Shown piece after piece: positions 25,322 through 64,000 of a stretch of DNA of 64,000 nt. Source of the DNA: Geodermatophilus obscurus (GTDB lineage: Bacteria; Actinomycetota; Actinomycetes; Mycobacteriales; Geodermatophilaceae); contig NZ_FOWE01000008.1 of assembly GCF_900115395.1 (NCBI RefSeq), positions 62,001 to 126,000 on the forward strand, in the 5' to 3' direction. Positions within the stretch are counted from its first letter, which is position 1; each line of letters begins with the position of its first letter. The position numbers and the translations under genes are program-made. The notes under the pieces are model-generated. The model was not told the origin of the DNA. It made no database searches and worked only from the letters and a program-made list of their open reading frames with translations.

Positions 25322-26611
25322 GTGAGCACCGCCGTGGCGCCGGACCTGACCCGCTTCCCCGCCGACGTGCGCGACGCCGTCGGCCGCCTCGCCGGCGTCG
25401 CCGAGCGCACGCCGCTCCAGCGCAACGAGCGGCTGTCGCGGGCCACCGGCGCCGACGTGTGGCTCAAGCGCGAGGACCTGCAGGTCGGCCGCTCCTACAA
25501 GGTCCGCGGCGCCTACAACACGATCAGCCGCCTCGACGCCGCCGCCCGCGCCGCCGGGGTGGTGTGCGCCAGCGCCGGCAACCACGGGCAGGGCGTCGCG
25601 CACGCCTGCCGGGTGCTCGGCGTCCGCGGCGCGGTGTTCGTCCCGGGCACCACGCCGCGGCAGAAGCGCGCCCGCATCCGCGCGCTCGGCGGGGACGTGG
25701 TGGAGCTGGTCGTCACCGGCGACACCTACGACGACGCCGCCGCGGCCGCCAGGGCACACGCCGACGCCACCGGCGCCACGCTGGTGCCGGCGTTCGACGC
25801 GTGGCCGGTCGTGGTCGGGCAGGCGACGGTCGCCGTCGAGGTGCTCGAACAGTTGGGCTCCGCGCCCGACGTCGTCGTGCTGCCGCTGGGCGGCGGTGGG
25901 CTGGTCGCCGGCTGCGGAACCTGGCTGGCGCAGGCCAGCCCGGGCACCCGGCTGGTCGGCGTGGAGCCCGCCGGGGCGGCGGGCATGGCGGCGGCGCTGG
26001 CGGCCGGGCGGCCGGTGGAGCTGCCGGCCATCGACACCTTCGTCGACGGCGCCGCGGTGCGCCGGGCCGGCGACGTCACCTTCCCGCTGGTGCGCGACTG
26101 CGGCGCCGAGGTGGTCGCCGTGCCCGAGGGGCAGATCTGCACCGAGATGCTCGACCTCTACCAGGTCGACGGGATCATCGCCGAGCCCGCCGGGGCGCTG
26201 GCCGCCGCAGCGCTCACCGGTGGGACCGTGCGCGTCGAGCCCGGCTCGACGGTGGTCTGCCTGCTCTCGGGCGGCAACAACGACGTCAGCCGCTACGCCG
26301 AGGTCATCGAGCGCTCGCTGGTGCACCAGGGCCTCAAGCACTACTTCCTCGTCGAGTTCCCGCAGGAGCCCGGGGCGCTGCGCCGCTTCCTCGACGACGT
26401 CCTCGGCGCCGACGACGACATCGTGCTGTTCGAGTACGTCAAGCGCGACAACCGGGAGACCGGCGCCGCGCTCACCGGCATCGAGCTCGGCAGCGCCGAC
26501 ACCCTGCCCGGCCTGCTCGCGCGGATCGCGGCCAGCCCGCTGCGCATCCAGCACCTCGACCCCGGCTCACCGGCCTACCGCTACCTCGTCCGCGGCGGCG
26601 TCCCCGGCTAG
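25322..26611 (+). CDS. ilvA: Threonine ammonia-lyase (threonine dehydratase)
   Basis: 429 residues from the GTG at 25322. PLP enzyme converting threonine to 2-oxobutanoate, first step of isoleucine synthesis. The PLP lysine is in VGRSYKVRGAYN, the phosphate loop in CASAGNHGQG and the glycine-rich loop in VLPLGGGGLVAG. The C-terminal 90 residues form one ACT-like domain (HYFLVEFPQEPGALRRFLDD), matching the shorter IlvA form of Gram-positives with feedback control. Its stop overlaps that of the convergent phosphatase gene. Confidence 0.93.
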   Translation: MSTAVAPDLTRFPADVRDAVGRLAGVAERTPLQRNERLSRATGADVWLKREDLQVGRSYKVRGAYNTISRLDAAARAAGVVCASAGNHGQGVAHACRVLGVRGAVFVPGTTPRQKRARIRALGGDVVELVVTGDTYDDAAAAARAHADATGATLVPAFDAWPVVVGQATVAVEVLEQLGSAPDVVVLPLGGGGLVAGCGTWLAQASPGTRLVGVEPAGAAGMAAALAAGRPVELPAIDTFVDGAAVRRAGDVTFPLVRDCGAEVVAVPEGQICTEMLDLYQVDGIIAEPAGALAAAALTGGTVRVEPGSTVVCLLSGGNNDVSRYAEVIERSLVHQGLKHYFLVEFPQEPGALRRFLDDVLGADDDIVLFEYVKRDNRETGAALTGIELGSADTLPGLLARIAASPLRIQHLDPGSPAYRYLVRGGVPG

Positions 26612-28830
26612 ACCCGCGCCAGCCCCACCACGGTGACGTCGTCGGTGCCGGGCGGGTCGAGCGCGCCGACCACCGCGTCGACCACCTCCTGCGGCTCCCC
26701 CGCGGCCGCGGCCACCGCGCGGCGCACCGCCTCGATGCCCTCGGGCAGCGGCCGGTCGCGGCGCTCGACCAGGCCGTCGCTGTAGAGCAGCAGCCGGTCG
26801 CCGGCCCCCAGCCGCAGCGTCACCTGCGGGTAGGCGACGTCGTCGAGCAGGCCGAGCGCCGGTCCGCGGCCGTCGGAGACCAACGCGGCGGCGCCGCCGG
26901 CGACGTGCACGGCCGGCAGGTGCCCGGCGCTGGCCAGCGCCAGCTCCCCGGTCCCCGGGTCGAGCTGGGCGACGACGACGGTCGCCATCTCCCCCGGCAG
27001 CAGGGCGGCGACCAGCCGGTTCAGCGCGGCGAGCGCGGCGGCCGGGCCCTCGTCGCGCAGCAGCGCCGCGCGCAGGGCGTGCCGCAGCTGGGCGGTCACC
27101 GCGGCTGCGCCCAGCCCGTGCCCGGCGCCGTCGCCGAGGACCACGGCCAGCTCCCCGCCGGGCAGCGGCACCAGGTCGTACCAGTCGCCGCCGACGACGT
27201 CGGCCTCGCTGGGCCGGTACCGGGCGCCCAGCGCGACGCCGGGGACCTCGGGCAGCTCCTCGAGCAGCAGGGTGCGCTGCAGCGCGGCCGACAGGCGGTC
27301 GTCCTCGGCGGCGCGGGCCAGCACCGCCTCGCCGAGGTGGGCGGCCAGCGCGCGGGCGGCGGCGACCTCGTGCGCCCGCCACGGGCGGGCGGTGCCGCGG
27401 ACGGTCTCGGTCCAGCGGGCGAAGGAGCGGCGCGGCGACAGCCGCCCGTCGGTCACCTCCGACGTCGAGGGGTCCCCGCCCCAGCTGACCTCGCGCGGGG
27501 TCTCAGGGCGGAACCAGGCGAGGAAGTCCCCGCGCCCGCCGCCGACCTCCACGGCGAGGACGCCGCTGGCGTCGGCGGCGAGGTCGTCGAGGCCGGGCAG
27601 GTCGAGGGGTAGCCGGTCGGTGCCCCCGCCGGCGCGCAGCACCGCGGGGACGAGCGCGGCGACGCGGTCGGCCGGCGGCGTCGTCCCGAGCAGGTGCAGC
27701 CGGCCGCCGAGGCGCACCGCGGCGCCGGCCGCCGGGAGCAGGTCCAGCGCGGTCACGTCGCCGTCGACCAGCGCCGCGGCAGGCGCCCGGGGGCTGCGCC
27801 CGACGGCGGCGGCCAGGTCGGCCTCCCGCCGGGACACCGCCACCACCGCCTCGCGGTCGCCGGCCTCGACGGTGGTGTGCAGCAGCAGCGAGGCGGTCCG
27901 GCCGAGGAACTCCGCCGCGGTGCGGTCGGCGACCGAGGGCCGGTGCGGGCCGCTGTAGGAGTGGCAGGCGACCAGGCCCCACAGCTGCCCGCGGTCGATC
28001 AGCGACACCGACATCGAGGCGGTGACGCCCATGTTGGCCAGGTACTCCAGGTGCACCGGCGAGACGCTGCGCAGCATTGCGCCGGACAGGTCCAGCGGCG
28101 CGCCCGTCCCCGGCAGCAGCGGCGGGTCGAGCGGCACCGGGGCGTAGGAGGCGTCGGGGATCAGCCGCAGCCAGTTGGTCGCGTACAGCGCGCGGGCCTG
28201 GGCGGGGATGTCGCCGGCCGGGTAGTGCAGGCCGAGGAACGGCTCGAGGTCTGGACGCCGGTCCTCGGCGACCACCTCGCCGTTCCACCCGGCGTCGAAG
28301 CGGTAGACCATCACCCGGTCGAAGCCGGTCAGCGCCCGCACCTCGCGGGCGAGCACGGCGGTCAGCCCCTCGAGCGTCGTCGGCGCGGACAGCCGCTGCA
28401 GCACCCGGGGCAGCCGCCGGTGCCACGCCGCGCCGGCCTCCCCGGCGCCGGCGACGGGCTCCCACTCGGTGACCAGCAGGCCGCCGCTGCGGCTGAGCAC
28501 CAGGTCGGCCTCCCGGCCGCCGGGCGCGACCCGCAGCGGGTCGGCCTCGGCGAGGTCGCCGTCGAGCGCGGCCCGCAGCCGGTCGAGGTCGGCGGTGCCG
28601 AGCACGTCGGCGAGCGTGGCGGGGGTGGCGCCGAGGACCTCGGCGGCGTTCGCCGAGGCGACGACGACGGCCAGGTCGGGCTCGGTGACGGCGAGCAGCG
28701 CGCCGTGAGGCTGGATCGCGCCGGGGACGGCGATCGGCTCCTCCGCGCAGCGGGCCAGCGCCTCGGCCTGCGAACGGGCGTCGACCAGGCGGCCGACGGG
28801 GTCGGGAGCTGCCGCCGGGGGCCGGATCAC
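26608..28830 (-). CDS. Bacteriophytochrome with C-terminal SpoIIE/PP2C phosphatase
   Basis: 740 residues from the GTG at 28830. Domain order: PAS (1-135), GAF (about 140-300), PHY (about 310-500) and SpoIIE-type PP2C phosphatase (about 520-740). RCAEEPIAVPGAIQPHGALL places Cys28 where bacteriophytochromes attach biliverdin. The GAF has FDRVMVYRFDAGWNGEVVAE, a PAGDIPAQAR variant of PASDIP, and the pyrrole-contacting His in ACHSYS. The PHY tongue has PRRSF. The phosphatase has GGDWYDL, LGDGAGHGLGAA and GTDDVTVV metal-binding blocks. It should dephosphorylate the STAS protein encoded 10 bases upstream in response to red/far-red light. Light control is inferred from domains. Confidence 0.93.
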   Translation of the reverse strand: MIRPPAAAPDPVGRLVDARSQAEALARCAEEPIAVPGAIQPHGALLAVTEPDLAVVVASANAAEVLGATPATLADVLGTADLDRLRAALDGDLAEADPLRVAPGGREADLVLSRSGGLLVTEWEPVAGAGEAGAAWHRRLPRVLQRLSAPTTLEGLTAVLAREVRALTGFDRVMVYRFDAGWNGEVVAEDRRPDLEPFLGLHYPAGDIPAQARALYATNWLRLIPDASYAPVPLDPPLLPGTGAPLDLSGAMLRSVSPVHLEYLANMGVTASMSVSLIDRGQLWGLVACHSYSGPHRPSVADRTAAEFLGRTASLLLHTTVEAGDREAVVAVSRREADLAAAVGRSPRAPAAALVDGDVTALDLLPAAGAAVRLGGRLHLLGTTPPADRVAALVPAVLRAGGGTDRLPLDLPGLDDLAADASGVLAVEVGGGRGDFLAWFRPETPREVSWGGDPSTSEVTDGRLSPRRSFARWTETVRGTARPWRAHEVAAARALAAHLGEAVLARAAEDDRLSAALQRTLLLEELPEVPGVALGARYRPSEADVVGGDWYDLVPLPGGELAVVLGDGAGHGLGAAAVTAQLRHALRAALLRDEGPAAALAALNRLVAALLPGEMATVVVAQLDPGTGELALASAGHLPAVHVAGGAAALVSDGRGPALGLLDDVAYPQVTLRLGAGDRLLLYSDGLVERRDRPLPEGIEAVRRAVAAAAGEPQEVVDAVVGALDPPGTDDVTVVGLARV

Positions 28831-28840
28831 CCGCTCGACC

Positions 28841-29191
28841 CTACGACCCCACCTCGCCGTCGGTGAGGGCTGCCGACTCCACGACGGGCACGAGCAGGTG
28901 CAGTTCGAGCAGGTCGATGACCAGGCGCACCGGTGTGTTGCCCCGCGGGCAGACCACCTGCACCGAGGTGCCGACGTCGGCGGCCCGGCGTGCGGCGCGG
29001 ACCAGCTCGCGCGCACCCGAGGAGTCCAGGAACGTGGTGTCGGTCAGGTCGACGACCAGCGACCGCGGCTTCGCCGCCAGCTCGGACGCGACGCTCTCGG
29101 CCAGCCGGGGAGCCGTCGCGACGTCGAGCTCACCACGTACGCTCAGCGCCGGTCGCCCGTGAGCCGCTCCGCGGTGGACGACGAACAGCAC
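28841..29191 (-). CDS. STAS-domain anti-sigma-factor antagonist
   Basis: 116 residues from the GTG at 29191, with GGGAG upstream. A single STAS domain: ALSVRGELDVATAPRLAES, then VVDLTDTTFLDSSGARELVR, which carries the serine phosphorylated by RsbW-type kinases. It lies 10 bases upstream of the phytochrome-phosphatase gene and divergent from an RsbW-like kinase gene. When dephosphorylated it would bind the kinase and free a sigma factor, which is not in the window. Confidence 0.92.
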   Translation of the reverse strand: MLFVVHRGAAHGRPALSVRGELDVATAPRLAESVASELAAKPRSLVVDLTDTTFLDSSGARELVRAARRAADVGTSVQVVCPRGNTPVRLVIDLLELHLLVPVVESAALTDGEVGS

Positions 29192-29257
29192 GATCGGGCT
29201 CCCTCGCTCGGCCTGGACCGCAGGAGCGTAGTACGGCGTCACGGAGGGAGGCTCGGC

Positions 29258-29686
29258 GTGGACATCTCGTTCACCGTCCGGCTGCCCGTCGACGTCGACA
29301 GCGTCCCGTTCGTCCGCGGCCTGTGCCGGCAGGCCCTCGACCACCTGCGGGTGGACCGGCCGGTGGTCGAGGAGACGACGCTGGCGCTGACCGAGGCCTG
29401 CGCGAACGTCGTCCAGCACGCCGGCGAGCACGCGGAGTACGAGGTGTCGGTCGCCATCGGCGACGGCCTGTGCCGGATCACCGTGGTCGACGACGGGTCC
29501 GGGTTCGACCGGGCCGAGGCCGAGGGCCGGGCGGGGCTCGACGTCGACGGCGGCGCGGGCGTGCGGCTGATGGAGGCGCTGGTCGACTCCCTCGACTTCC
29601 GCCGCGACGCCGAGGGCCGGCACCGGGTCAGCCTGGAGAAGCGGCTGTCCTCCCGTCCGCCGCTGCGCCTGCTCGACCGCGCGTAG
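29258..29686 (+). CDS. RsbW-type anti-sigma kinase (HATPase)
   Basis: 142 residues from the GTG at 29258, with GGAGGGAG eight bases upstream. GHKL ATPase fold: N-box ALTEACANVVQHAGEHAEY, G1-box VVDDGSGFDRAE, and a later GAGVRLMEALVD lid. Serine kinase and anti-sigma factor of partner-switching systems. It is divergent from its likely target, the STAS protein, with 66 bases between them. The three genes make a complete switch apart from the sigma factor. Confidence 0.9.
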   Translation: MDISFTVRLPVDVDSVPFVRGLCRQALDHLRVDRPVVEETTLALTEACANVVQHAGEHAEYEVSVAIGDGLCRITVVDDGSGFDRAEAEGRAGLDVDGGAGVRLMEALVDSLDFRRDAEGRHRVSLEKRLSSRPPLRLLDRA

Positions 29687-31269: not shown

Positions 31270-32433
31270 ATGGAGCAGATCACCGAACGCCTGCTCAGCT
31301 GGGCGTCGATCCTGGAGCCCGCCACCCGGGAGCAGGCCGAGCGCACCGCCTCGATGCCCTTCGTCCACCCGCACCTGGCGCTCATGCCCGACGCGCACCT
31401 GGGCCTGGGCGCGACCGTCGGCTCCGTCATCCCGACCGACGGCGCCATCATCCCGGCCGCGGTCGGGGTGGACATCGGCTGCGGGATGATGGCCGTCCGC
31501 ACCCAGTTCACCGGCGACGACCTCCGCGGCCGCAACCTCGCGACCCTGCACGAGCAGGTCTCCCGGTCGATCCCGCTGTCGGCCGGCGGCCGCAACCGCA
31601 GGGTGCGCGACACCGCCGCCCCCCGGGTCGAGGAGCTGCGTGGCATGCCGGGCGCCGACCAGGCCGACGGCGTCGCCGACTCGTGGCCGCTGCAGCTGGG
31701 CTCGCTCGGCTCCGGCAACCACTTCATCGAGGTGTCCCTCGACGAGGCCGACCGGGTGTGGCTGTTCCTGCACTCGGGCTCGCGCGGCGTCGGCAACAAG
31801 CTGGCGTCGAAGCACATCCGGGTCGCGCAGGAGCGCACGCGGGCCCGCGGTGTCGAGGTCCCCGACCGCGACCTCGCCTACCTGGAGGAGGGCGAGCCGG
31901 AGTTCGACACCTACATCGAGGCGCTGCGCTGGGCACAGCGGTTCGCCGCGCTCAACCGCGAGGAGATGATGGACCGCGTCGCCGACCAGCTGTCGAGGTT
32001 CCTCACCGAGGAGGTGCGGCGCGAGCAGGTGGTCCAGTGCCACCACAACTACACCGAGCGGGAGATCCACTCCGGGCGGGAGGTGTGGCTGTCGCGCAAG
32101 GGCGCCATCTCGGCGCGCGCCGGTCAGTGGGGGCTCATCCCCGGCTCGATGGGCGCGGCGTCCTACGTCGTCGTCGGGAAGGGCGACCCCGCGTCGCTCA
32201 TGTCGGCGCCGCACGGCGCCGGCCGGGCGTTCTCCCGGACGGCGGCGCGCAAGCGGTTCAGCCGGGCCGACCTCGACCGGAGGATGGCGGGCATCGCGTG
32301 GGGCCGCTCGGACGCGTTCCTCGACGAGCACCCCGACGCCTACAAGGACATCGACGTCGTCATGGCCGACGCCGCCGACCTCGTCGAGATCCGGCACACG
32401 CTGCGCCAGGTGGTGAACGTCAAGGGCGACTGA
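31270..32433 (+). CDS. rtcB: RNA-splicing ligase RtcB
   Basis: 387 residues. GTP- and Mn-dependent ligase joining RNA ends with 3'-phosphate or 2',3'-cyclic phosphate to 5'-OH. Metal ligands are visible in GVDIGCGM (Cys71), LGSGNHFIEV, LHSGSRGVG and QCHHNYTE, and the guanylylated His315 is in APHGAGRAF. Length fits the compact bacterial form. No rtcA, archease or RtcR-type activator gene is nearby. GGAGAGAGAAAGGACC provides the ribosome site. A 19-bp hairpin repeat lies downstream. Confidence 0.96.
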   Translation: MEQITERLLSWASILEPATREQAERTASMPFVHPHLALMPDAHLGLGATVGSVIPTDGAIIPAAVGVDIGCGMMAVRTQFTGDDLRGRNLATLHEQVSRSIPLSAGGRNRRVRDTAAPRVEELRGMPGADQADGVADSWPLQLGSLGSGNHFIEVSLDEADRVWLFLHSGSRGVGNKLASKHIRVAQERTRARGVEVPDRDLAYLEEGEPEFDTYIEALRWAQRFAALNREEMMDRVADQLSRFLTEEVRREQVVQCHHNYTEREIHSGREVWLSRKGAISARAGQWGLIPGSMGAASYVVVGKGDPASLMSAPHGAGRAFSRTAARKRFSRADLDRRMAGIAWGRSDAFLDEHPDAYKDIDVVMADAADLVEIRHTLRQVVNVKGD

Positions 32434-37680: not shown

Positions 37681-38103
37681 TCAGTACACGACGCCGAGGT
37701 GGCGCTCGGCGCAGGGCATGCACAGACCGGTGTTGTCGTGCACGTGCTCACGCGCGTTGACCCTGCGGCACACCGGGCACCAGCGGAAGGTCCGCCGTCG
37801 CTTGCGGGCGACCTCCTCGGCCGCCTCGGCGAGGGTCGCGCGCTCGTAGAGCACCTCATCGGAGGAGAACCGGCGGTCGGGCAGGAACTCCCACACGAGC
37901 CGGTGCCCCTCCCACCGCGGCTCCGGACGGGCCAGCGTGAAGCCGAAGCCGTCCCAGCCCACCGCCACCTGCGCCGGCTCGCCGCTCACGAACCACCGCT
38001 CGTGCGGCGGGCCGGCGACCTCGAACCAGGCGTCGCCCAGCGCCCGCACCAGCACGTCCGGGGCGACGCCCGCCAACTCGGCCAGCGATGCGGTGTCAGA
38101 CAC
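37681..38103 (-). CDS. Zinc-ribbon protein of unknown function
   Basis: 140 residues. The N-terminal 95 residues are a mixed fold with WFVSGEPAQVAVGWDGFGFT, unlike any family I recognise. The C-terminus has CPVCRRVNAREHVHDNTG then LCMPCAERHLG, a four-Cys zinc ribbon, preceded by a basic RKRRRTFRW segment. The start lies inside the end of the nuclease-helicase gene (8-base overlap), a sign of translational coupling. It probably binds nucleic acid or bridges the flanking nucleases. Confidence 0.7.
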   Translation of the reverse strand: MSDTASLAELAGVAPDVLVRALGDAWFEVAGPPHERWFVSGEPAQVAVGWDGFGFTLARPEPRWEGHRLVWEFLPDRRFSSDEVLYERATLAEAAEEVARKRRRTFRWCPVCRRVNAREHVHDNTGLCMPCAERHLGVVY

Positions 38104-41100
38104 CGGCCATCTCGGCCAGTCGGCACATCGCGTTGACCTGCCGCAGCTGCTCCGGCGTGCGCACCGCGGCGTCGAGCAGCAGCGGGCTCATCACCACCAC
38201 CGCCAGCGCCTTCGCCCGCGACACCGCCACGTTGAGCCGGTTGAGGTCGTACAGGAACGACACCCCGCGCGGCGCCTCCTCGGCCGACGTCGACGTCGTC
38301 GAGTAGACGACGACCGGCGCCTCCTGCCCCTGGAACCGGTCCACCGTCCCCACCCGCGCGCCGTCGGGCAGCAACGAGCGGATCAGCGCCACCTGGTTGT
38401 TGTACGGCGCGACCACGAGCACGTCGTCGGGCCCGATCGGCCGCTGCGCGCCCTCGTAGTCGACCCACCCCACGCCCTGCAGCGACCTCCAGACGGCGGC
38501 CACCTCGCGCGCCTCCTCCACCGACGACGCCGACGCCGGGGTCGTGTGGGACACGAACCGCACCGCCGGCCCGGAGCCCGACACGAGCCCGCCCGGCCGC
38601 ACCGTGATCCGCTCCCGCAGCGGCGCCGACTCCAGCCGGCCCTCGTACGCCAGGTCGGAGACGAACGCGGTCAGCGCGGGGTGCATCCGGTAGGTGCGGT
38701 CGAGGAAGACCCCCCGGCCCTCGGGGACCGTCGGGTGGCCCTCGAGCAGGTGCTCCAGCGCCGAGAGCCCCGACTCGCCGGGGTGGACGCCCTGCGTCGG
38801 CTGGGCGAGCTGCTGCGGGTCGCCGAGCAGCACCAGCGAGCGGGCCGACCGCGCCACGGCCAGCGCGTTGGCCAGCGAGAACTGCCCCGCCTCGTCGACG
38901 ACGAGGACGTCCACGGCCCCGGCCAGGTCGGGCTGCGTCCAGAACCACGCCGTCCCGCCGACCAGCGACACGTCGCCCCCGAGCAGCCGGCGCGCCACCT
39001 CCTTGCCGTCCTTCGACCACTCGACGTCCGGCGCCCCGCACGCCTGGTTCTCGTCGCACTTCTGCAGCGCCGGCCGCCGGACCGCCGACAGCACGTTGCC
39101 GATGACGGCGTGCGAGGTCGCCGTGACGCCGACCTTCTTGCCCGCGTCGAGCAGCGCCCGGATCAGCCGCGACGCCGCCCGCGTCTTGCCGCTGCCGGGC
39201 GGGCCCTGCACGGCCAGCACCTCGCCGTCCAGCCTCAGCCCCAGCCGGACGACGGCGTCACCGGCCTCCTCCCCCGGCTGCCGCCGGCAGTCCGCCGGCA
39301 CCCGGCGCGCCAGCAGCGCCGACCCGAGGCAGTCGCGGTCGGCCAGCACGTCGTCGGCGGTGGCGGCGATCGCCGCGCGCATGCCCTTGTCGTCCAGCGG
39401 CCCGCTCGGCCCGAGCCCCCGGGCGGCCACCGGCGGCTTCGCCGTCTTGACGACGACCCGCCCCGCGGCGGCGTCCAGCGCGACGACGGTGCCGATGCTG
39501 ACGTGCCGGTCGACGTCGACCGCCGTCGACCCCTTGGCCAGCTTCGTGTCCTGCGTCGGGAACCGGTACTCGTAGAGCTTCGACCGCTTCTCCTGGCCGA
39601 CCTCCACCGGCTCTGTCAGCCGGCCGAGCGCGGTGCCGTCCTCGACGAGCGCGTCGTCGTCCATGTCCTTCCGGGCGAAGAACTCCCACCAGCCGGGGCG
39701 GGCCTCGCGGCGGTGCCACTGCACGAGGTCGCCGATCAGGTCGTGCCCGGCCTCCTTGAGCCGCTCGACCAGCGCCAGCTCGGCGAGGTCGGCGTCGGTC
39801 CGCTCCACCGGGCCGGTGGTCTCCGACACCAGCGGGCGGTCCTGGCCGCCGAACTCCCGCTCGAGCTCCTCGCGCTGCGTCTCCAGCCAGTCGTGGAGCT
39901 CGCGGGTGGAGTCGACGTCGTCCTTGTTGTAGTCCTCGATGGCCTGCAGCCGGGCGGGGTCGCGGTCGGCGAGCCACTGCTCGTAGGCGATGACGCTGCC
40001 CATCGCGTCGGCGACGTCCCCGGTGTGCTCGCGGCCGTAGAACGCCTCGACCTTCTTGATCGAGTACGAGCCCTTGCTGATCCGCATCGACTGCTTGACG
40101 ACCGGATAGAGGTCGACGAACCGCCCGGCGCGCAGCAGCTCGTCGAGCTCGGCCTCGCGGACGCCGTAGCGGCCGGTCAGGCGCTTGAGCGCGCTGACCT
40201 CGTAGGCGGCGTAGTGGTAGACGTGCATGCCGGGGTCGGCGCGCCAGGCGTCGAGGACGAGGTCGACGAGGTCGGCGACCATCTGCCGCTCGGCGGCGGG
40301 GTCGTGCGCCCACAGCGCGGTGAACGAGCCGTCGCGCCGCCCGACGCCGGCGAGGTACTCCAGACCCGCGCCGTCGGCGGAGAGCGGGTCGCCCTCGAAG
40401 TCGAGGTAGAGGTCGCCGGGGCTGGGCTCGGGCAGCCGGAGCAGGCCGAGGCCCTTGACGGGTGCGAGCAGCGTGCGGGTGGGCGCACCGGTGGACCGCT
40501 CGCGCAGCTGCTCGCGGGCCTGCTCCTGCACGCGGGCGCGGGTGGCGGCGCCGATGCGCGCCGCCTTCAGCGTCTCGGGGTCGGCGCCGGCGAGCTGCTC
40601 GAGCGTGGTGATGCCGGCGGCGCGCAGGGCCTCGCGGGTGTCGGTGCGCATGCCGGCGACGAGGGAGAGGTCGTCGGCGGCGAGCAGCTCCGCGTCGCAG
40701 CGCGCCTTCCACGTGCACTGGCTGCAGTAGTTGGTCGGGACAGGCCCGGTGACCGGCGGGTCGGCGAGGAAGCCGGTGAGCCGGGCGCGGGCGCGGCGGG
40801 CGTAGGCGGCGACGTCGACCAGCCGCCACGGGTGGGTGACGCCGTCGCCGGTGACGACGCAGATCCGGTCGGGCTGCCGGCCCTGCAGGACGGCGAGCCG
40901 CTCGGCGTAGGTGGCCATCTGCAGCAGCGCGGGCACCTTGACGCGGCGGGCGAGCTTGGCGTCGGCGACCTCGTAGGACCAGCCACCCAGGGCCGACGGG
41001 GTCTCCACGCGGAGCAGGAAGTCGGCCGCGCCGCCCCACGTGCCGTCGAAGAAGGACGCCTGCGCGATGACGTCGACGCCGGCGCGCATCGCCTGCAGCG

Positions 41101-41371
41101 TGAGCGCCTCGGCCTCGCGGCGGCCGGCGACGTCGAAGCGCGCCGGGATGCGGACGACCGACCGCCCCTCGGCCTCGAGCGCGTCGAGGTAGGCCAGCTC
41201 GTGCTCGATGCCGAGGTCGGCGATGAGCGCGGCGTGGTCGTCGGGGCCCTCGGCGGGCGGACGCAACCGGCCGTCGGCGACGGCGAGGTCGAGCGTCGTG
41301 GCGTGCGCGCAGGCCTGGTGGCGGGTGAGGTCGGTGGGGCTCAGGACCAGAGAGCCGTCGGTGCGGTACAT
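38096..41371 (-). CDS. TM0106-type RecB-like nuclease fused to Dna2/Upf1-type helicase
   Basis: 1091 residues. The N-terminal nuclease has Cys21 (RHQACAHATTL), an ExxDAK-like catalytic segment (GGWSYEVADAKLARR) and three further Cys in NYCSQCTWKARC, matching an iron-sulphur-bound Cas4/AddB-like nuclease. A central RNase H-like region follows (DLYLDFEGDPLS, IEDYNKDDVDSTRELHDWL). The superfamily-1 helicase has Walker A VQGPPGSGKTRAAS near residue 720, VLVVDEAGQFS near 822, LLGDPQQLAQP and VDRFQGQEAPVVVYS. Members are of unknown role, often suspected in repair or defence. First gene of the operon and divergent from an ADP-ribosylglycohydrolase fusion. Confidence 0.9.
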   Translation of the reverse strand: MYRTDGSLVLSPTDLTRHQACAHATTLDLAVADGRLRPPAEGPDDHAALIADLGIEHELAYLDALEAEGRSVVRIPARFDVAGRREAEALTLQAMRAGVDVIAQASFFDGTWGGAADFLLRVETPSALGGWSYEVADAKLARRVKVPALLQMATYAERLAVLQGRQPDRICVVTGDGVTHPWRLVDVAAYARRARARLTGFLADPPVTGPVPTNYCSQCTWKARCDAELLAADDLSLVAGMRTDTREALRAAGITTLEQLAGADPETLKAARIGAATRARVQEQAREQLRERSTGAPTRTLLAPVKGLGLLRLPEPSPGDLYLDFEGDPLSADGAGLEYLAGVGRRDGSFTALWAHDPAAERQMVADLVDLVLDAWRADPGMHVYHYAAYEVSALKRLTGRYGVREAELDELLRAGRFVDLYPVVKQSMRISKGSYSIKKVEAFYGREHTGDVADAMGSVIAYEQWLADRDPARLQAIEDYNKDDVDSTRELHDWLETQREELEREFGGQDRPLVSETTGPVERTDADLAELALVERLKEAGHDLIGDLVQWHRREARPGWWEFFARKDMDDDALVEDGTALGRLTEPVEVGQEKRSKLYEYRFPTQDTKLAKGSTAVDVDRHVSIGTVVALDAAAGRVVVKTAKPPVAARGLGPSGPLDDKGMRAAIAATADDVLADRDCLGSALLARRVPADCRRQPGEEAGDAVVRLGLRLDGEVLAVQGPPGSGKTRAASRLIRALLDAGKKVGVTATSHAVIGNVLSAVRRPALQKCDENQACGAPDVEWSKDGKEVARRLLGGDVSLVGGTAWFWTQPDLAGAVDVLVVDEAGQFSLANALAVARSARSLVLLGDPQQLAQPTQGVHPGESGLSALEHLLEGHPTVPEGRGVFLDRTYRMHPALTAFVSDLAYEGRLESAPLRERITVRPGGLVSGSGPAVRFVSHTTPASASSVEEAREVAAVWRSLQGVGWVDYEGAQRPIGPDDVLVVAPYNNQVALIRSLLPDGARVGTVDRFQGQEAPVVVYSTTSTSAEEAPRGVSFLYDLNRLNVAVSRAKALAVVVMSPLLLDAAVRTPEQLRQVNAMCRLAEMAGV

Positions 41372-41455: not shown

Positions 41456-42859
41456 GTGACACGGGGACTGCACCGCTCGCACCGGGTGGCGGGTGCGCTG
41501 GTCGGGTCGGCGGTGGGTGACGCGCTGGGCGCGCCGTTCGAGTTCGGCCCGCCGGGCGCGTTCTCGGCCCGGTTCCCCGTGCCCGCGCGGGGTTCGGCGA
41601 CGGAGATGTGCGGCGGCGGGTCGCTGGGCTGGGAGCCGGGCGAGTTCACCGACGACACGCAGATGGCGCTGCTGCTGGCCGGCTCCCTCGTCGAGCGCGG
41701 CGGGCTCGACGAGGCGGATCTCTTCGAGCGGTTCGTGGCCTGGGCGGCGGCGGATCCGCCGGACATCGGCAACCAGACGCGGGCGGTGCTGTCGTCGGGG
41801 CTGCCGTGGGATCGCGCGGCTGAGGAGCACTTCGCGCGGTCGGGGCACGCGGCGGGGAACGGCTCGCTGATGCGGACCACCCCGGCGGCGATCTGGTTCT
41901 CGCGCTCCGGCACGGAGGCGACCGTCGACGCCGCGCGCCGGATCTCGGCGCTGACCCACGGCGACCCGTCCGCCGGCGAGGGCTGCGCCGTCTTCCACGA
42001 GCTGCTGCGGGTGGCGCTCGACGGCGGGGACCCGCTGGCCGCCGTCGCCTCGGCACTGTCACTGGTGGCGCCCGAGCACCGGGACCGGTGGGCGACCGTG
42101 CTGGCCGAGGACTGGTCGCCCGACCAGGCCACCGAGTCCAACGGCGCGGTGTGGCCGACGCTCGGGCAGGCGGTGTGGGCGCTGCGGCACGGGCGCGACT
42201 TCGCCGAGGTGCTGCGGCTCGTCGTCGACCTCGGCGGCGACACCGACACGGTCGCCTGCGTGGCCGGCGGGCTGGCCGGGGCGGTGTACGGGATGGGCGG
42301 CATCCCGATGCGGTGGTCCTCGCCGGTGCACGGACGGATCCCCGGGCACGGCGACCGGGTGTGGCGGCTGGCCGACCTGCAGCAGCTCGCGGCGGCGCTG
42401 GACGGCAAGCCGGTGCCGTCGTACGACCCCGGCGTCATCCCGCGGATCGGTCCGGTGGAGGTGCTGCCGGGGATCTGGGCGGGCAACCTCGACGGCGCGC
42501 GGTTCTCCGACGAGGACTTCGCCGTCATCTCGCTGTGCCGGCTGGGCGAGCCGTTCCCGCACACCAACCACCGCATGGCCTACATCGCGGACAACGAGTA
42601 CAACGTCGACCTCGACGTGATGCTGGCCGACGTCCTCGACGACCTCACCGCGCTGCACGCCGAGGGCCACCGGGTGCTCGTGCACTGCCACGGTGGGGCG
42701 TCGCGGACGGGGCTGGTGCTTCGCGGCTGGCTGGTGCGCGAGCAGGGGATGTCGGTGGAGGAGGCGACGACGCACGTCGCCGAGCGCTGGTCGCACCTCG
42801 GGCTCTGGAACGCCAGCTTCACCGCCGCGCTGGAGCGGCTGACGAAGCCGAACCGCTGA
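41456..42859 (+). CDS. ADP-ribosylglycohydrolase fused to a cysteine phosphatase
   Basis: 467 residues from the GTG at 41456, with GGAGG six bases upstream. Residues 1-290 are a DraG-type ADP-ribosylglycohydrolase: VGSAVGDALGAPFEF, EFTDDTQMALLLAGSL and VVDLGGDTDTVACVAGGLAG supply the Mg-binding Asp/Thr residues. After a linker, residues 330-467 form a dual-specificity phosphatase-like domain with the CX5R loop HCHGGASRTGLVLRG near residue 400. The protein could remove ADP-ribose and phosphate from one substrate or signal. Target unknown; it lies between a nuclease-helicase and an AbiE-like pair. Confidence 0.9.
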   Translation: MTRGLHRSHRVAGALVGSAVGDALGAPFEFGPPGAFSARFPVPARGSATEMCGGGSLGWEPGEFTDDTQMALLLAGSLVERGGLDEADLFERFVAWAAADPPDIGNQTRAVLSSGLPWDRAAEEHFARSGHAAGNGSLMRTTPAAIWFSRSGTEATVDAARRISALTHGDPSAGEGCAVFHELLRVALDGGDPLAAVASALSLVAPEHRDRWATVLAEDWSPDQATESNGAVWPTLGQAVWALRHGRDFAEVLRLVVDLGGDTDTVACVAGGLAGAVYGMGGIPMRWSSPVHGRIPGHGDRVWRLADLQQLAAALDGKPVPSYDPGVIPRIGPVEVLPGIWAGNLDGARFSDEDFAVISLCRLGEPFPHTNHRMAYIADNEYNVDLDVMLADVLDDLTALHAEGHRVLVHCHGGASRTGLVLRGWLVREQGMSVEEATTHVAERWSHLGLWNASFTAALERLTKPNR

Positions 42860-62533: not shown

Positions 62534-63402
62534 ATGGAGACGGGCGACCCGATCATGACGGAGGAGCGGCGGCGCCTCCACGCCAGCTTGCTGACTGATC
62601 AAGCCTTTCGGTTAGCGAGTTGCGCGTCCCCAGCGACGCGGACAAGGACAACCGTGCGAGCGTCGCCTACGCCACTCACATCGCGACAGCCTTACGGGCG
62701 GAGACAGGGTTGCGCCTCGCTAGCCAATCCTCGGGCGGGAGATTCGAGCAAGCCTGCGCGAACTTCCTCAGCACGACCTTTCCCCGCCTCAGCCACCTGC
62801 GCCCGGGCGATTTGGGAATCACAAAGGTTGGAAGTCGCAACGCGGATTCCGGCGCCTCCCGCTTCGAGCAATACTCACACCTGGTAGAGCTGTCGGCCGC
62901 GGTCGAGGCAAACCCCTCGCTTCGCGCGGCACTAGGCAATGCCTATGCGATTGCCCCTGACGTAACCATCGCCCGTGCCCCCGTCGGCGATGAGGAGATT
63001 AATGCACACGACTGGCTGATAGATGATTCGGTGGCCACCCGCGCTACGATCCGCGCCCCAGTGCAGCCGCTGCCCATCTTGCATGCGGTTGTGTCATGCA
63101 AATGGACTCTCCGCCCGGACCGCGCTCAGAACGTCCGCAGTGAGGCACTCAACCTCGTCCGGAACCGCAAGGGCAGGCTCCCCCACGTCGTGGTGGTCAC
63201 CGGCGAGCCGACACCCACACGAATCTCATCACTCGCCCTCGGCACAGGCGACATTAACTGCGTATACCACTTCGCCCTACCAGAACTCATCGAAGCCGTG
63301 AAGACCTACGGCGCCGATGACGCCATTGAGCTGCTGGATATAATGATCCAGGGCAAGCGGCTCAAGGACATCGCCGACTTGCCCTTCGACCTCGCCGTCT
63401 AG
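62534..63402 (+). pseudogene. NgoMIV-like type II restriction endonuclease, frameshifted
   Basis: The body (SCKWTLRPDRAQNVRSEALN, LVRNRKGRLPHVVVVTGEPT, LALGTGDINCVYHFALPELI, GKRLKDIADLPFDLAV) closely resembles NgoMIV, which cuts GCCGGC; the catalytic SCK and Glu are present. The N-terminus METGDPIMTEERRRLHASLL reads in another frame, joined near 62605-62620 by a one-base deletion. With the frame restored the protein is about 289 residues, the family length. A TTG start at 62620 would give 260 residues without the first helix, of doubtful activity. Base composition is lower in GC than the flanks, indicating transfer. Confidence 0.85.
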
Positions 63403-63416
63403 CGAGTCAGCTTTGG

Positions 63417-64000
63417 TCAGCTGATGCGGGAGCGAGCCGAGCGTGTCGCAAAGGCAGCGTGCCGTTCGTGGTCATCCTGGCCGGTGAAGGCCCTAAAACT
63501 TCCGAGGCGGATCTCCACGCCCCCTTGAGCCGGGTAGATGAAGTCGATGTGGAAATCCTTGCTCAGGTTGGCAACGTGCTGCTCAAGCTTCGCGGGATCA
63601 AGTGCTGGCTTGACGCGGTTCCGCAGCGCCTCGAATGAGACGTAGCCGTCAGCTTCCCGCAACGCCCTGTAGACCCCGTCATGCTCTACTTTGAGGAGCC
63701 CGAGGTCCGTCTTCTCTTCCTTCTGACTCAGAGCGTCGTGGATAGCGCGACCAACCGCCTCGGCCATCGGCGGCGGGAAGGCGTTACCCACTTGGCGGTA
63801 CTGAGCAGTCTTCCGACCCGCCAGCTCCCACTTGTCAGCCGGATCCCACCCTTGGAGGCGCTTGACCATCTCCACGGTGAGCTTCGGCTTCTTTTCCTCG
63901 GGATGCGGGTCCTTCATGGCCGGCGCCTCGTTGGCGATGCCCAAGCCATCGACGAACATGTCTGCCCATGCACGCTTGGCCCGGGTAGGGCCAAGATCAG
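63417..64000 (-). CDS. DNA (cytosine-5) methyltransferase, C-terminal part
   Basis: The frame is open to the window end. The motif IX region VEMVKRLQGWDPADKWEL and motif X YRQVGNAFPPPMAEAVGRAI identify a C5-cytosine methyltransferase. A C-terminal extension of about 95 residues (GVYRALREADGYVSFEALRN, RLGSFRAF) follows. It is convergent with the NgoMIV-like nuclease gene, stops 14 bases apart, and is presumably its protecting enzyme. The catalytic PC motif lies outside the window. Confidence 0.88.
   Translation of the reverse strand, partial: DLGPTRAKRAWADMFVDGLGIANEAPAMKDPHPEEKKPKLTVEMVKRLQGWDPADKWELAGRKTAQYRQVGNAFPPPMAEAVGRAIHDALSQKEEKTDLGLLKVEHDGVYRALREADGYVSFEALRNRVKPALDPAKLEQHVANLSKDFHIDFIYPAQGGVEIRLGSFRAFTGQDDHERHAAFATRSARSRIS

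Follow-up and report, generated by a model that had tools for sequence, protein, structure and literature searches.

Whether red or far-red light can be passed from a phytochrome directly into a partner switch, the phosphatase, STAS protein and kinase relay known from bacterial sigma-factor control, is the question raised by a locus of Geodermatophilus obscurus. The locus lies in a stretch of 64,000 nucleotides (contig NZ_FOWE01000008.1, positions 62,001 to 126,000; hereafter the window), and its three genes, together with a putative promoter element, are the following.

26608..28830, minus strand: BphP1, fusion of a PAS-GAF-PHY bacteriophytochrome with a SpoIIE/PPM serine phosphatase (Pfam, PDB matches, AlphaFold2 (AF2) model)
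28841..29191, minus strand: STAS protein of the anti-anti-sigma type with a DSSG phosphorylation motif (Pfam STAS, PDB matches)
29225..29230, minus strand: putative -10 element TACGCT of the STAS-BphP1 operon (TANNCT consensus in relatives)
29258..29686, plus strand: GHKL anti-sigma-type serine kinase, divergent from STAS-BphP1 (HATPase_c_2, AF2 fold)

We consider this trio a well-supported candidate for a partner switch that responds to red and far-red light, and probably it is one. BphP1 comprises 740 amino acids between a GTG start at 28830 and a stop at 26608, and its Pfam domains all score far over their cut-offs (SpoIIE 146, PHY 143.3, PAS_2 67.3 and GAF 57.2 bits). Solved bacteriophytochromes in the PDB match residues 21-508 (E 2.6e-101), and among solved structures the PPM domain comes closest to Rv1364c (E 5.2e-25). 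The AF2 model, with a mean predicted local distance difference test score (pLDDT) of 80.8 and a predicted template modelling score of 0.54, contains helices at residues 300-345 and 486-521. Ten bases separate the stop of the STAS gene from the start of BphP1. The STAS product, 116 amino acids counted from its GTG, reaches 48.6 bits for Pfam STAS, clearly beyond that cut-off, and 51.4 bits for NCBIfam ant_ant_sig (TIGR00377), narrowly below the cut-off of 53.45; anti-sigma factor antagonists, RsfB and SpoIIAA are among the PDB entries that it matches. Beyond a divergent intergenic region of 66 bases follows the kinase gene, encoding 142 amino acids (Pfam HATPase_c_2, 69.9 bits). At the other end, the stop of BphP1 overlaps that of a convergent threonine dehydratase gene, which is itself outside the unit.

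A first-pass annotation of this DNA had described a complete light-responsive partner switch at 26608-29686, and open reading frames and Pfam domains place the three genes exactly there. Its further statements on a PAS-GAF-PHY phosphatase with Cys28, the tongue motif PRRSF and an intact PP2C domain, on the 10-base distance to a STAS gene with a phosphorylatable Ser, and on a kinase gene lying opposite were borne out by the domain matches, by the residues found in the window including all PPM aspartates, and by a kinase fold matching RsbW, UsfX and SpoIIAB. The word "complete" holds for phosphatase, STAS protein and kinase, whereas the release of a sigma factor, which the annotation also expected, is a candidate output with no sigma gene in the window; at two of 55 orthologous loci the kinase is missing as well.

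The residues on which such a switch would depend are widely conserved, as counted over the 55 orthologous BphP1 loci unless stated otherwise. Cys28 aligns with the Cys preceding the PAS domain in the PDB bacteriophytochromes; this position, the site of biliverdin attachment in bacteriophytochromes such as DrBphP, is Cys in 54 orthologues. D207, H260 and Y263 are likewise present in 54, the single gap falling in a broken copy, each of the PRxSF tongue residues is found in 53-54, and H290 is invariant across the 44 sequences of one alignment. Residue 201 is Leu and not the Gln that serves as a bathy signature, and no conclusion on a bathy or an ordinary phytochrome is drawn from it. In the phosphatase, D549, D567, D685 and D731, presumably the metal-binding Asp residues of the PPM fold, are all present in the BphP1 of the window and in 52-53 of the orthologues. 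The motif PAGDIP, which had been pointed out as standing in place of PASDIP, is truly there. Since the position of its Gly is occupied by Gly in 18, Ser in 34 and Ala in two orthologues (one gap), a defect was ruled out; it is one of three lineage variants beside a conserved Asp. The Ser of DSSG is kept in all 55 STAS proteins, and Ser57 occupies the position of SpoIIAA Ser58. The kinase N-box residues Glu46 and Asn50 are present in 53/53 orthologues.

Phosphatase, STAS protein and kinase are conserved as one unit. We searched 112 genomes of the family and retrieved and examined all BphP1 loci found, which amount to 55 in as many genomes, spread over five of 12 genera and 64-100% identical on the longest aligned piece. 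At every one of them STAS and BphP1 are direct neighbours and share a strand. The kinase gene is divergent at 50 loci, with 57-89 bases between aligned starts, and at three (G108-G110) it stands 3.3-7.7 kb off, beyond inserted genes. A kinase orthologue (E at most 9.1e-42) occurs in 53 of the 55 genomes with BphP1 and in none of the 57 without it, where the best match has an E value of 1.1e-9. Chance clustering is made very unlikely by the STAS-BphP1 linkage and by this co-occurrence. In 10 BphP1-less genomes we also searched for the neighbouring threonine dehydratase, obtaining seven matches at E<=1e-60, five of which are orthologues 80-83% identical (L175-L179). No trio gene was detected within 1.5 kb of these five; the sole exceptions are a kinase match of 37 residues in L177 (E 0.002) and two matches to BphP with E values over 0.4. 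The inserts that separate STAS and kinase in G108-G110 (L101, L102, L103; one genus) read like cytochrome P450, as judged by sequence reading.

Are the STAS protein and the kinase then private partners of BphP1? The genome is rich in similar parts, with 24 SpoIIE and 35 HATPase_c_2 matches, the latter including histidine-kinase ATPases and some matches under the cut-off. BphP1 and a second phytochrome-phosphatase of the same architecture, BphP2, might therefore feed a shared STAS pool, the trio being one input arm of a network. Consistent with such a pool, the trio-STAS hidden Markov model (HMM) found no match in 10-12 kb around the 13 copies of BphP2 examined, the closest STAS paralogue among the loci of this genome examined (42% over 64 amino acids) is located near a sigma gene on contig C8, and the kinase is absent from G022 and G027 despite a full-length BphP1. 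Kinase-like matches lie 2-4 kb from BphP2 at three of the 13 loci (L146, L147, L151). As a base rate, the trio HMMs gave kinase-like matches (E<=0.01) at five of the genome's 24 SpoIIE loci (L002, L005, L007, L008, L020) and STAS matches at two (L005, L007), a rough figure given that the flanks of 1.5 kb are too short to reach even the trio's own partners from L012. A dedicated STAS-kinase pair is favoured because the STAS-BphP1 linkage holds at 55/55 loci and the kinase co-occurs in 53/55 versus 0/57 genomes, and we regard the shared pool as unlikely.

The arrangement of the intergenic region offers a candidate promoter. Of 50 intergenic regions, 49 have a hexamer TANNCT ahead of STAS, compared with a mean of 6.0 and a maximum of 15 of 50 after mononucleotide shuffling. 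Judged by this consensus match in related sequences, it is a plausible, putative -10 element of the STAS-BphP1 operon. TACCCT also precedes STAS at both kinase-less loci. A sigma-B-like promoter with GGGTA on the kinase strand was considered as well and rejected, since a TANNCT -10 on the STAS strand is the better description of the conserved hexamer.

A phytochrome of this type would need biliverdin. A haem oxygenase (PF01126, 33.1 bits against a cut-off of 23) is encoded on another contig of the same genome, followed by the second phytochrome-phosphatase.

L093 3829-6863, contig C17, outside the window: haem oxygenase, then BphP2 (PAS-GAF-PHY-SpoIIE)

BphP2 is about 44-48% identical to BphP1. 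A BphP2-like match of about 41-48% identity, read from matches reaching down to E ~1e-36, is present in 77 of the 112 family genomes (partial in G104), and 13 of these loci were examined. Using the haem oxygenase of this genome as query (E<=1e-8), orthologues were found in 85 of the 112 genomes; of the 27 genomes left unmatched, seven were assigned by elimination. All 55 genomes with BphP1 have the enzyme, as do 29 of the 35 with BphP2 only and one of the 22 with neither phytochrome. Among those 22, seven are at least 90% complete, and the enzyme is found in none of the seven. The 13 genomes from four genera that have BphP1 without a BphP2 match all keep haem oxygenase, the match in G027 holding one TGA, and in all six of the BphP2-less neighbourhoods examined it stands near a gene with the same end residues as the BphP2 neighbour elsewhere. 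Because the enzyme persists in 13/13 of these genomes, BphP1 is most simply taken to be the consumer of the biliverdin. In G058 (L193 1028-1405) a remnant of BphP2 that matches positions 1-101 and 729-748 of a query of 748 residues adjoins haem oxygenase and looks like the product of an internal deletion. An earlier survey of 28 genomes with the Pfam haem oxygenase model found the enzyme in 11, with scores near the cut-off, and was judged too insensitive (G055 was negative).

How could light absorbed by the sensor reach the phosphatase? Trp473 of the tongue and Gly548 in the phosphatase GGD are 75 residues apart in 85/85 proteins (52 BphP1, 13 BphP2 and 20 proteins of the class from outside the family; three frame-broken BphP1 were excluded), although the groups share only about 35-47% identity over this stretch. 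Many other distances between anchors vary, such as C28-E124, L362-R441 and H637-D685. In the AF2 model, helix 486-521 leads into the phosphatase, the last 20 residues being less sure (block mean pLDDT 77 and 66). According to the available text of PMC12143880, RsbU is activated when a coiled-coil linker brings its PPM domains together as a dimer, and the accessible part of PMC9587094 describes several linker length classes for the PadC phytochrome cyclases, in which length alters the light response. A fixed joint of 75 residues predicts that insertions should uncouple or invert the response to light. The same source suggests, in that part, poor light control for phytochrome-cyclase homologues of the +2 linker class, and BphP1 may accordingly respond to something else, as a thermosensor, as an apoprotein sensor, or not at all as a constitutive phosphatase. 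Against this stand the conservation of all chromophore and tongue motifs, the presence of haem oxygenase in 55/55 genomes and the fixed joint, so that we hold it to be very improbable that light is not the main input.

The kinase points to the possible output. Its AF2 model (pLDDT 84.1) was compared by VIA-align with the chains ranked high by Foldseek, among which RsbW (Z 18.0, root mean square deviation 1.5, 112 aligned), UsfX (Z 17.9, 2.0, 119 aligned) and SpoIIAB (Z 17.4, 2.6, 127 aligned) are tied. The top ten rows are all structures of RsbW, UsfX, SpoIIAB and Rv1364c (Z 16.4-18.0), followed by LvrC (Z 15.5) and SiaB (Z 13.5), with histidine kinases from Z 9.8. Against the NCBIfam RsbW/SpoIIAB equivalog models the kinase scores 35 bits where the cut-off is 145, 27.3 where it is 155 and 21.4 where it is 135. 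Kinase and STAS protein thus resemble the classical partner-switch proteins, the kinase sharing the superfamily of RsbW and SpoIIAB, yet, because the NCBIfam cut-offs were missed, they are not orthologues of the classical pair. A sigma factor seems the likeliest target, given that sigma-system kinases occupy all ten top rows of the fold comparison. With a real phosphatase-STAS-kinase core, the kinase might nevertheless hold and release a protein of another kind. The low equivalog scores would fit this, as would the lack of a sigma gene in the window and the fact that the sigma gene at C8:19654-20091 already has HATPase and SpoIIE-HATPase neighbours of its own. LvrC and SiaB, which come directly after the sigma-binding rows, are not known to act on sigma factors. 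The ten best fold rows argue against a non-sigma target, and so does Arg20, which we take to be the docking residue of SpoIIAB and which is invariant in 36 aligned kinase sequences; on balance, such a target seems somewhat unlikely.

With a sigma factor as the likeliest target, we infer a mechanism that includes the binding of biliverdin, the control by light and its sign, and the pairing of kinase and STAS protein in phosphorylation. BphP1 would bind, at Cys28, biliverdin made by the haem oxygenase encoded elsewhere in the genome. Photoconversion would refold the PHY tongue and shift helix 486-521, which, being of fixed length up to the PPM phosphatase, would change the phosphatase activity. 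The phosphatase would then strip the phosphate from Ser57 of the adjacent STAS protein, and, once dephosphorylated, the STAS protein would bind the divergent kinase and pull it off its target, most probably an alternative sigma factor whose gene lies outside the locus. In the absence of the signal, the kinase would phosphorylate the STAS protein again and keep the target bound. More specifically, we tentatively propose, as a possibility with slightly less than an even chance, a dedicated phytochrome-driven switch in which red/far-red sunlight acts through BphP1 to release an alternative sigma factor, without a two-component system or a second messenger, and thereby prepares a rock and desert lineage for desiccation or ultraviolet radiation. 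The same tentative standing applies jointly to this switch, the joint of fixed register and the sharing of one haem oxygenase by BphP1 and BphP2.

Several observations weigh against a light-responsive partner switch. One of the 55 BphP1 orthologues has Ser in place of the Cys at the biliverdin position, and BphP1 is frame-broken at L106 (G012), L107 (G005) and L108 (G030), where STAS and kinase are present; these breaks may be assembly errors or real pseudogenes. The two genomes that have a full-length BphP1 and no kinase belong here, too. Contrary to a simple pattern, haem oxygenase was not matched in six BphP2-only genomes (G085, G089, G100-G103), and the one phytochrome-less genome that has it, G098, is 80% complete. 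The phyletic counts as a whole are non-independent owing to kinship, and many of the phytochrome-less genomes are incomplete; both inflate the significance, and therefore the pattern was used and not a p-value. The joint is not unique: when 635 windows of 75 residues were compared, 108 had a constant length throughout the 85 proteins. These make up three blocks, of which one is at the joint and the other two lie around the GAF domain and the helix leaving it. Regarding the target, the window contains no sigma gene, the nearest sigma match lies on the same contig some 59 kb ahead of position 1 of the window, and the genome as a whole has 23 Sigma70_r2 and five Sigma70_r3 matches.

More distant relatives were surveyed as well. 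A sample of 394 genomes from the whole class yielded 39 with a match at E<=1e-60 (the family members G000 and G023 included), and of the 40 rows outside the family 20 BphP-PPM loci from 18 genomes were examined, with partners sought by HMMs built from the trio, which may miss divergent ones. A STAS gene was detected within about 5 kb at five of the 20 loci and a kinase gene in addition at two of these. At L160 the order is phosphatase, STAS and kinase on one strand, whereas L170 is convergent. In both, the STAS protein has another sequence in place of DSSG, PSLA at L160 (a Ser is kept) and SCSS at L170. With STAS at 5/20 loci and the kinase at 2/20, the association of a phytochrome phosphatase with partner-switch genes is thus seen again beyond the family, without being the rule among the loci sampled.

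Many partner switches sense their stimulus by means of extra upstream proteins. In the trio the sensor would be the phosphatase itself, and the stimulus could be switched by a lamp. The Bacillus subtilis sigma-B switch (RsbU/RsbP, RsbV, RsbW) and SpoIIE/SpoIIAA/SpoIIAB likewise combine a PPM phosphatase, a Ser-bearing STAS protein and a GHKL kinase; the trio differs from them by a full bacteriophytochrome input, by having no adjacent sigma gene and by a kinase gene divergent from the STAS-phosphatase operon. The kinase, STAS and PPM parts also have actinobacterial counterparts in Mycobacterium tuberculosis, namely UsfX/RsfB and Rv1364c. However, Rv1364c is a single fused protein with a PAS sensor according to the consulted portion of PMC12143880, whereas the trio consists of three genes with a phytochrome sensor. 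The PAS-GAF-PHY-SpoIIE architecture of BphP1 defines a class of bacteriophytochrome-SpoIIE/PPM proteins that is already in print, as one colour in a published effector tree, and the available sections of PMC9587094 describe neither biochemistry nor neighbouring STAS or kinase genes for it. In the PadC diguanylate cyclases, a helical linker joins PHY to the effector as in BphP1, but the effector is GGDEF and the linkers fall into the classes -7, -4, 0, +2, +7 and +14 (PMC9587094, same sections), in contrast to the one length in 85/85 of the phytochrome-phosphatases compared. The photocobilin SasPcob of Saccharothrix, a bilin/B12 photoreceptor, has been suggested from predicted networks to interact with STAS, SpoIIE and PP2C-like proteins (PMC10979010, in the part available); it is another kind of photoreceptor with a predicted interaction, while BphP1 is a fused sensor-phosphatase.

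In B. subtilis, red light activates sigma-B via the RsbP branch of its partner switch, as stated in the available parts of PMC12627116 and PMC3019169. That route works without a known phytochrome, whereas the trio would use a phytochrome to link red light with a stress-type response. The three-gene module itself is undescribed in the open-licence PubMed Central literature that was searched, as far as the accessible text of these sources goes, so that the novelty is one of known parts with a new input. If the proposal is true, the trio would provide a light-addressable system for studying how N-terminal sensors turn on PPM phosphatases. A review (PMC12627116) reports, in its available part, sunlight as a warning of drying for Pseudomonas syringae, and we hypothesize a similar ecological role for the trio.

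Some other genes of the window deserve mention. An RtcB RNA ligase gene (31270-32433, plus strand) is situated about 1.6 kb from the trio. Further along the window, a protein of 1091 amino acids (38099-41371) combines an RNase_H_2 nuclease domain with AAA helicase-type domains, and a single protein of 467 amino acids (41456-42856) unites an ADP-ribosylglycohydrolase with a dual-specificity phosphatase-like domain. At 62620-63959, an NgoMIV-type restriction enzyme gene (351 bits) is convergent with a C-5 cytosine methylase gene, which appears to run past the end of the window, and the two are likely a restriction-modification pair.

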